A stretch of DNA of 31,070 bases from a virus, in IMG/VR virus record IMGVR_UViG_3300044641_001797, positions 1-31,070 of that record; one strand, written 5' to 3'. Positions 22,280 to 24,674 of this stretch are shown piece by piece (positions within the stretch are counted from its first letter, which is position 1; each line of letters begins with the position of its first letter). The notes under the pieces are model-generated. The model did not search any database and had not been told where the DNA came from. It saw only the letters and a program-made list of their open reading frames with translations. Made by a program: the position numbers and the translations under genes.

Positions 22280-22612
22280 TTTTGTTGTGTTGTTATATTA
22301 TATTTTATTTTAATATGTCTATTACAAAATAAAAAAAATCAAAATACAAAAAAGTTAAAGTCATTGTTTGGTATCAGAATTTTAGGGGGCACAAGGCACC
22401 CTTCAATCCTTTTACACGAATTAAACGGGTAGGGGGTTATTAATACCTTTCTACCTAACAGATAATATATATTATGTTAAATAGATCAACCTATCCCCTC
22501 CCCTATCAGGGGCAAAGCTAATGATAAATTTAATGACTTCAAACTCACTCAACCCCGCCAACTAAGAACTAATAAGACTAATTAATTAGTAATACACTAC
22601 TAACTATATCTT

Positions 22613-22767: not shown

Positions 22768-22801
22768 TTTGTACTTTGTATCATTTTATATATTATCTTT
22801 G
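22768..22801 (+). promoter_or_regulatory. Candidate early rightward promoter
   Basis: TATCTTTG (22794-22801) matches the Bacteroidetes -7 box TAnnTTTG. A TTTG at 22768-22771 lies 22 bases upstream (a second TTTG at 22775-22778 is closer, 15 bases). Start would be near 22807, giving a ~25-base A-rich leader to the first early gene at 22832. Confidence 0.5.
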
Positions 22802-23463: not shown

Positions 23464-23481
23464 TTAAACTTTACAACTATG
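23464..23481 (+). repeat. Repeated 18-base gene leader, copy 2
   Basis: Exact copy of the leader at 22954-22971, again ending in the start codon. The two genes it serves are otherwise unrelated, so the leader has been kept or copied on its own. Confidence 0.8.
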
Positions 23482-24369
23482 AGAACAAAATTTAGCAATT
23501 CAGAACTAACTCACATTTGGGCAAATCAAACTCAAACACATGGCAAAGGCTCAAACATGTTTTTTGAATATGACAGTATTTATTCATATGGATATCACTT
23601 TAAATTAGCTCAACACATAACAAACAAAGACGGCAAAAAATGTGTATTTTTAAATGACAGGAGCTATTCAAATACAACTAGTAAACATCAAAGACTAGTT
23701 TGGAGATCTATTCCCGCAAATGTTGAGTTTTTTAAAGTACAAACTTTTTTTAATGATATTGAGAACTCGTCAACCGCACATTTAGAGAATTTAAAATCTT
23801 ATTTAGTATATGCAAAAGACAGTCAAGCAAAAACACTGACGGCAACTAAGTTAAAAAACGGATACATAGAACAAACAAAAATATTAATTGACATTTTTGA
23901 AAAATATGTCTCTTTTTTTGGCTTAAGTGAGTTTTTGTGGGAATATAAAACCTTGCAAAATAGATATAACGAGTTAACCAATTGGATATTTGAATACCAA
24001 AACTCGGAGGAGTTCAAAACATGGCAAATAAAAAAAGCCGAGAACGAAAAAAAGGCGGAGCAAAAGCGACTAGAAAAAGCAAAAGATGACATTTTACAAT
24101 TTAGATCCTTTAAAATATCATCAATTTATAATTTAGGTACATATTTTTTAAGATACAATAAAGAAACCGACAATATTGAGACAAGCGGAGGCGTAAAAAT
24201 GTCAAAAAATGTTTTTTTATCAGCTTACAACCGTTTTAAAAATAATGTTTTACAAGTTGGTCAACATGTCGGTGATTTTACATATAACGGAATAAAAGAC
24301 GGTTTTTTATCGGTTGGTTGCCATAAAATCAGCGTTGATGAGGTTGAGAATTTAGTACATATTTTATAG
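23479..24369 (+). CDS. Protein of unknown function (296 aa) upstream of the ribozyme
   Basis: The N-terminus carries a conserved-looking block: FSNSELTHIWANQTQ, then MFFEYDSIYSYGYHFKLAQHI and CVFLNDRSYSNTTSKHQ. This resembles a family of unknown function common in phages and small circular elements of Bacteroidetes (I recall it as DUF8033; not checked). The middle is a charged helix (EFKTWQIKKAENEKKAEQKRLEKAKDD) and the end, ETSGGVKMSKNVFL ... GCHKISVDEVENLV, forms a second conserved block. No catalytic motif is evident. The TAG stop (24367-24369) is immediately followed by the hammerhead ribozyme, and the stop lies in the predicted bulge of extended stem I. Confidence 0.75.
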   Translation: MRTKFSNSELTHIWANQTQTHGKGSNMFFEYDSIYSYGYHFKLAQHITNKDGKKCVFLNDRSYSNTTSKHQRLVWRSIPANVEFFKVQTFFNDIENSSTAHLENLKSYLVYAKDSQAKTLTATKLKNGYIEQTKILIDIFEKYVSFFGLSEFLWEYKTLQNRYNELTNWIFEYQNSEEFKTWQIKKAENEKKAEQKRLEKAKDDILQFRSFKISSIYNLGTYFLRYNKETDNIETSGGVKMSKNVFLSAYNRFKNNVLQVGQHVGDFTYNGIKDGFLSVGCHKISVDEVENLVHIL

Positions 24370-24433
24370 GGTTAACTGACGAGCTGTTAAATTCAGCGAA
24401 ATAAAGGGGCTATTTAGCCCTTTTATATTAACC
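24370..24433 (+). ncRNA. Type I hammerhead self-cleaving ribozyme
   Basis: All parts of the hammerhead consensus are present in order. Stem I 5' strand GGTTAA is at 24370-24375 and the core CTGACGA at 24376-24382. Stem II is GCTG/CAGC (24383-24386 with 24394-24397) with a 7-base loop and the required G-C first pair. Core GAAA follows at 24398-24401. Stem III pairs 24402-24411 with 24416-24425 (10 bp, one G-T wobble, loop ATTT). The A at 24401 pairs with T 24426, and A 24427 is the H17 cleavage-site base. Stem I 3' strand TTAACC (24428-24433) pairs exactly with the 5' strand. Cleavage is expected between 24427 and 24428. Stem I may continue past a bulge (24366-24369) through ATTTT (24361-24365) with AAAAT (24434-24438). 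Both ends leave through stem I, so it is type I. Stem III by itself looks like a terminator, but the complete core explains more. Confidence 0.93.
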
Positions 24434-24446
24434 AAAATAAATAACA

Positions 24447-24674
24447 ATGTTTACAAGGATTAACAATGACACAAACGGCAACCCTCGTTATTGTGTACAT
24501 TATTTACAAATTGCGGACACATATGAAAGAGCCCTTTTTTTAGCTCGTCATTTAGGAGGTCGTAAATTCCACAATAAGCAATACGGCGGAGGTATTGCTT
24601 TTCAGTCTTACAATACCGACCAATTAGCCGAAAAGATAGCTAAAATAAAACAAGACGAGTTTTTAGCAAAATAA
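24447..24674 (+). CDS. Hypothetical early protein (75 aa) downstream of the ribozyme
   Basis: It reads MFTRINNDTNGNPRYCVHYL, then YERALFLARHLGGRKFHNKQYGGGIAFQSY and a helix (LAEKIAKIKQDEF). The basic HNKQYGGG block suggests a conserved small protein; similar ones occur in Bacteroidetes phages next to the 296-aa family, from memory. Its start codon lies 19 bases after the predicted ribozyme cut, so the cleaved message would carry a 5'-hydroxyl and a very short leader. Function unknown. Confidence 0.75.
   Translation: MFTRINNDTNGNPRYCVHYLQIADTYERALFLARHLGGRKFHNKQYGGGIAFQSYNTDQLAEKIAKIKQDEFLAK

Follow-up and report, generated by a model that had tools for sequence, protein, structure and literature searches.

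The stretch of DNA analysed here, referred to as the window, is a virus record of 31,070 bases from a tailed phage, with structural genes (portal, terminase, capsid) on its minus strand and with small early genes and replication genes on its plus strand. Between two plus-strand genes without assigned function, encoding proteins of 296 and 75 amino acids, lies a type I hammerhead ribozyme (Table 1). The 75-aa gene has distant homologues in Staphylococcus and Aeromonas phages, and the operon is presumed to be early in view of the replication genes located downstream. Two sites in the divergent structural/early region resemble Bacteroidetes-type promoters, one at 22513-22543 on the minus strand and one at 22768-22801 on the plus strand, the latter of which precedes the early genes; over the whole window such promoters number four matches against 2.5 expected, which is not significant. 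The host may be a species of Bacteroidota, judging from the A-rich leaders devoid of Shine-Dalgarno motifs and from the related hammerhead in Flavobacterium phages. A BLASTN search of the hammerhead region against known phages returned no match.

Table 1 Features of the hammerhead locus in window coordinates
Feature	Position	Strand	Basis or remark
Upstream gene, 296 aa, phrog_7247, no assigned function	23479..24369	+	Stop codon abuts the ribozyme
Type I hammerhead ribozyme, whole element	24370..24433	+	Sequence, fold, covariance model, ortholog covariation
Stem I, 5' strand GGUUAA	24370..24375	+	6 bp with 24428-24433 (TTAACC); sequence and fold
Core CUGACGA (C3 U4 G5 A6 N7 G8 A9)	24376..24382	+	Sequence; invariant in orthologs except N7
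Stem II GCUG/CAGC with 7-nt loop UUAAAUU	24383..24397 (24383-24386 / 24394-24397)	+	Sequence, fold; 3 of 4 pairs covary
Core GAA (G12 A13 A14)	24398..24400	+	Sequence; ortholog conservation
Stem III with AUUU loop	24401..24426 (24401-24411 / 24416-24426)	+	11 bp counting A15.1-U16.1; sequence, fold
Predicted cleavage site	24427..24428	+	After A17 = 24427; hammerhead rule
19-nt A-rich leader UUAACCAAAAUAAAUAACA of the downstream message	24428..24446	+	Includes the 3' strand of stem I
Downstream gene, 75 aa, phrog_3164, no assigned function	24447..24674	+	Orthologs in IMG/VR

The RNA of the element (24370-24433) reads GGUUAA CUGACGA GCUG-UUAAAUU-CAGC GAA AUAAAGGGGCU-AUUU-AGCCCUUUUAU A UUAACC, and all nucleotides that define a hammerhead are present. 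The A15.1-U16.1 pair is formed by A24401 and U24426, stem III continues beyond it for 10 bp, one of which is a G-U pair, and the H17 position is occupied by A24427. The loop of stem II has U as its first and A as its third base. Stem I is open at its end and stems II and III are closed by loops, which in both sequence and fold is the type I topology. The TAG stop codon of the upstream gene (24367-24369) directly precedes the ribozyme and the next ATG is found at 24447; the sequence thus agrees with the first-pass annotation, which had the element begin on the base after a stop codon and placed the predicted cut between 24427 and 24428, 19 nt before the ATG of the 75-aa gene.

The MFE fold of the element is exactly the hammerhead three-way junction (-20.9 kcal/mol, z -4.1), with none of 200 shuffled sequences folding equally well, and the junction is retained when the element is folded within 161 nt of context. 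Scanning with a generic type I descriptor picked out this site alone in the window, and 400 simulated windows (12.4 Mb, searched on both strands) contained no match at all. With a type II/III descriptor relaxed to very lenient criteria, the window yielded one match, which is again the core at 24376 and hence no separate element. A covariance model, R1, was built from 40 hammerheads that precede other phage genes, with the window and its orthologs excluded; in the window it gives the hammerhead 47.8 bits (E 6e-9), the runner-up match having an E value of 0.71, and a covariance-model search of random sequence gave no match. A search with Infernal had been suggested as a check on the first reading and its outcome is divided: this purpose-built model finds the site, whereas the stock hammerhead models of Rfam release 15, at gathering as well as permissive thresholds, give no hammerhead match there. 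The same models also miss complete hammerheads at other phage loci, and a classical hammerhead in L047 that served as a sensitivity control scores no more than 15.6 bits where the cut-off is 52. Since clear phage hammerheads are overlooked in this way, the Rfam miss carries little weight, and current Rfam models overlook a large population of phage hammerheads.

The 75-aa gene was followed through 48 partly redundant IMG/VR loci in which the protein is at least 69% identical, and in 39 of these the equivalent position, 18-20 nt ahead of the start codon, is occupied by a hammerhead (a count that takes in five copies whose stem III bears a long insert and two in which an additional base separates A9 from stem II). 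Across the 26 distinct simple sequences among them the core is invariant except for N7, paired cells hold standard pairs in 96.9% of cases and both-sided changes occur at 10 pairs. The resulting covariation score of 0.451 compares with 0.184 for shuffled alignments (0/500 as high) and with at most 0.132 when pairing partners were slid. Stem I appears as GGUUAA/UUAACC, GGUUUA/UAAACC and GGUUUG/CAAACC, its two core-proximal pairs showing A-U to U-A, G-U and G-C changes; stem II appears as GCUG/CAGC, GGCU/AGCC, GUCU/AGAC and GCUA/UAGC; and stem III, which covaries throughout, has both-sided changes at five of eight counted pairs. The initial description of a complete type I hammerhead with a mismatch-free core is therefore upheld by sequence, fold, the R1 score and ortholog covariation, and the covariation in stems I-III that had been proposed as a check in related phages is indeed seen, together with the near-invariant core. 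Relatives of the 75-aa protein below 69% identity showed no upstream hammerhead core in a simple pattern search. In relatives of the upstream 296-aa gene the reading frame likewise stops at a hammerhead, including cases in which a different gene follows (L284, L285), and one of them (L286) has an imperfect copy of the hammerhead at its end.

Upstream of the 75-aa gene in L207, L208, L209, L217 and L218, stem III contains a conserved three-way-junction insert (GAGAGCUA...CGGCUC), which is possibly an aptamer or a mere insertion; searches for the insert of L207, L217 and L218 elsewhere found it only before the same 75-aa gene. The remaining nine of the 48 loci have a different small, covarying structured RNA in place of the hammerhead (L225:2931-2985, L230, L231, L232, L233, L235, L236, L237 and L244). 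This compact RNA of about 42 nt consists of a 7-bp P1, a CGCU-NNA-GGCG hairpin (CGCUNNAGGCG), an NNN-UUCGAU-NNN hairpin and a closing AA, and it also occurs before other genes, with further loci in L292, L294, L295, L297 and L299. It has no match in Rfam, no hammerhead was found at the loci that carry it, and it is considered a candidate for a new processed or self-cleaving RNA. An exchange of a hammerhead for another structured RNA at one site was not found described in the searchable literature, the scope of which leaves subscription journals largely outside. The phage contig L002 (6534-7861), in which a pistol ribozyme (Rfam, 61.8 bits) is situated between two hammerheads, is another region where ribozyme classes are mixed, the second such case.

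The element of the window belongs to a wider subfamily. The stem I pattern GGUUAA/UUAACC was found in at least 120 IMG/VR stretches before many different genes, with up to five matches per contig among the matches listed. It accounts for 117 of the 168 distinct complete hammerheads that pattern scans collected among the matches listed, a share biased by the search pattern itself, and it is recurrent also in a scan that left stem I free. In GTDB genomes most of the 24 pattern matches proved on inspection to be due to chance. Among the matches listed, the distance from the cut to the ATG is 18-24 nt in 94 of the 118 subfamily members with a downstream ATG, as compared with about 11% (230/2173) of random positions with a downstream ATG; the majority of copies start no more than a few nucleotides from the preceding stop codon. 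The first-pass annotation had regarded the precise intercistronic placement as a distinguishing feature of this phage. The intercistronic position is supported by ortholog covariation and by the conserved ATG spacing in orthologs and subfamily alike, so that the spacing itself is confirmed, but it is less singular than claimed, being the rule across the GGUUAA subfamily. No description of this subfamily with its 18-24 nt rule was found in the searchable literature, outside the scope of which most subscription-journal papers fall.

Subfamily leaders among the matches listed contain 52% A and 4% G, and Shine-Dalgarno-like motifs are present in 14 of 112 of them versus 27 of 32 leaders of the other collected hammerheads. 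Loop II is usually U-N-A-N-U across 124 members among the matches listed, in 118 of which stem I is preceded by an A and in 120 of which it is followed by one, with AA coming next; the window deviates in having G at the 5' flank of stem I. This combination may point to a tertiary contact between loop II and the tail, of the kind needed for fast cleavage at physiological Mg2+, since Pelagibacter and Flavobacterium phages share the loop and the flanks despite other stem I sequences. In all 168 elements among the matches listed H17 is C or A and never G, and N7 varies freely. The 40 members located before other genes are 100% paired with a covariation score of 0.552 versus 0.118. Arrays of several to about 10 hammerheads within a few kb, placed between successive small genes, were observed in L185 (1-2522), L052 (6256-9600), L119 and L118. 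In a further recurrent variant A9 and stem II are separated by one inserted base, a U in nearly all copies (CUGANGA-U-GG..CC-GAAA); it is probably tolerated or functional, given that about 20 distinct copies exist, at L238, L239, L286, L059, L062, L081, L088, L108, L109, L115, L119, L142, L152, L163, L190 and other loci.

The element is proposed to function as a type I hammerhead that cuts the early polycistronic transcript in cis, uncouples the cistrons and provides a short fixed leader, a reading that is given a probability of roughly 0.8. The polycistronic early RNA would be cut co-transcriptionally between A24427 and U24428. Of the two resulting messages, the one with the 296-aa gene would then end in a 2',3'-cyclic phosphate right behind the 11-bp stem III hairpin, and the message from the 75-aa gene onward would start with a 5'-OH and the 19-nt A-rich leader, which may suit initiation in the absence of a Shine-Dalgarno sequence. 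The likely benefit would be independent stability and translation for either cistron, together with a fixed short leader for the downstream gene. The mean unpaired probability of the start region rises from 0.62 to 0.67 upon predicted cleavage, a modest change that is expected from removing upstream sequence; with so small a predicted gain, unmasking of the start codon is not the obvious purpose of cleavage, and separation of the messages, stability or a defined leader are therefore likelier. Several observations count against the proposal. Stem I of the window is 6 bp long and open, so that the classical loop-loop contact cannot be drawn, and its 5' flank is G where nearly all of the subfamily have A; four of 18 consensus hammerheads gave no in vitro cleavage (PMC3088659); and nine ortholog loci have no hammerhead, although another structured RNA is present in them. 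In its favour, prophage hammerheads that occur in clusters are cleaved both in E. coli and in vitro, and the RNA end mapped at the halovirus HF1/HF2 hammerhead agrees closely with the cut there (PMC3088659). The role of bacterial and phage hammerheads has been described as an open question (PMC6155905).

Three other explanations have to be weighed. The hammerhead might be real and cleaving but owe its persistence chiefly to being a selfish module, mobile or prone to recombination, that lands in phage intergenic gaps and has no role in expressing the genes beside it. Near-identical 5' halves (GGUUAACUGA) do precede many unrelated small genes, several copies may share a contig (L118, L119, L125, L142) and the identity of the flanking genes varies, as reported for prophage hammerheads (PMC3088659). 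Pure insertion would however not be expected to yield a fixed distance of 18-24 nt to the ATG or abutment on a stop codon, orthologous sites are retained while their stems covary, and no insertion footprints or flank repeats were seen on reading the sequences. A selfish module is accordingly judged unlikely, although it is the most plausible of the three.

Stem III could alternatively be the conserved part, acting as a terminator or attenuator hairpin to which the likeness to a hammerhead is secondary, and in the window GGGGCU-AUUU-AGCCC is indeed followed by UUUUAUAUU. This is very improbable, as the nucleotides that never change belong to the catalytic core, dispensable for a terminator, and as orthologs L197, L212, L213, L199 and L217 keep the hammerhead geometry and lose the U-run; no terminator-like site was called on the plus strand at the locus. 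An intrinsic terminator in the strict sense, with a G+C-rich hairpin and a conserved U-run, was rejected because the U-run is missing in many orthologs. Just as improbable is a catalytically silent leader that adopts the hammerhead fold and affects translation or stability without cutting. In its favour, the leader UUAACCAAAA is itself conserved and present in some loci that have no hammerhead (L225, L297). Against this, the junction is maintained by compensatory changes, and a strict core with free N7 and with H17 restricted to C or A is what catalysis would require and reads as a signature of selection for it.

Beyond the preferred reading of a cis-cutting hammerhead, it may tentatively be speculated that the cutting between genes is itself under selection and that self-cleaving RNAs are exchangeable at one site. 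The RNA of about 42 nt would then represent a new class, either self-cleaving or processed in some other way, and the GGUUAA hammerhead together with the A-rich leader of 18-24 nt would form a portable cassette for Shine-Dalgarno-independent phage genes; this broader scheme is a doubtful one. The locus offers a clean test case, with dozens of orthologous sites that have compensatory changes and a fixed distance to the start codon, and with a natural core-insertion variant and a non-hammerhead replacement at the same position. Because related elements occur in cultured Flavobacterium and Pelagibacter phages, cleavage, message ends and protein output are directly testable.

Hammerheads flanking small phage genes were already described in 2011 (Perreault et al. 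2011, PMC3088659), and the window element joins them as part of a well-defined subfamily with a positional rule. It shares with the described prophage and phage hammerheads the core, the type I architecture and the intergenic position in phage operons; in some relatives there are likewise several copies per operon, and the role proposed for the earlier set is likewise the splitting of long phage messages (PMC3088659). Unlike that set, the subfamily has a near-fixed stem I (GGUUAA/UUAACC) with A on both sides, a UNANU-like loop II, A-rich leaders and the 18-24 nt ATG rule. The HHphage hammerhead of haloviruses HF1 and HF2 precedes the start codon of an early gene by 13 nt, akin to the window, and the RNA 5' end mapped there is no more than 3 nt away from its cleavage site (PMC3088659); it differs in having core insertions near C3 and a haloarchaeal host, the window core being of the consensus type. 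Theta (HDV-like) ribozymes of gut phages are likewise self-cleaving RNAs of tailed phages with a proposed role in RNA processing, but they belong to another ribozyme class, are associated with tRNA genes and are proposed to trim tRNA 3' trailers (PMC10879173). Among cultured phages, related hammerheads occur in the Pelagibacter phages HTVC019P, HTVC131P and Jormungand and in the Flavobacterium phage elemoB, which R1 matches with E values of 6e-7 to 5e-9; their UNAAU loop II and A-flanked stem I are as in the window subfamily, whereas the sequence of stem I is different, for instance GCAAAA/UUUUGC.
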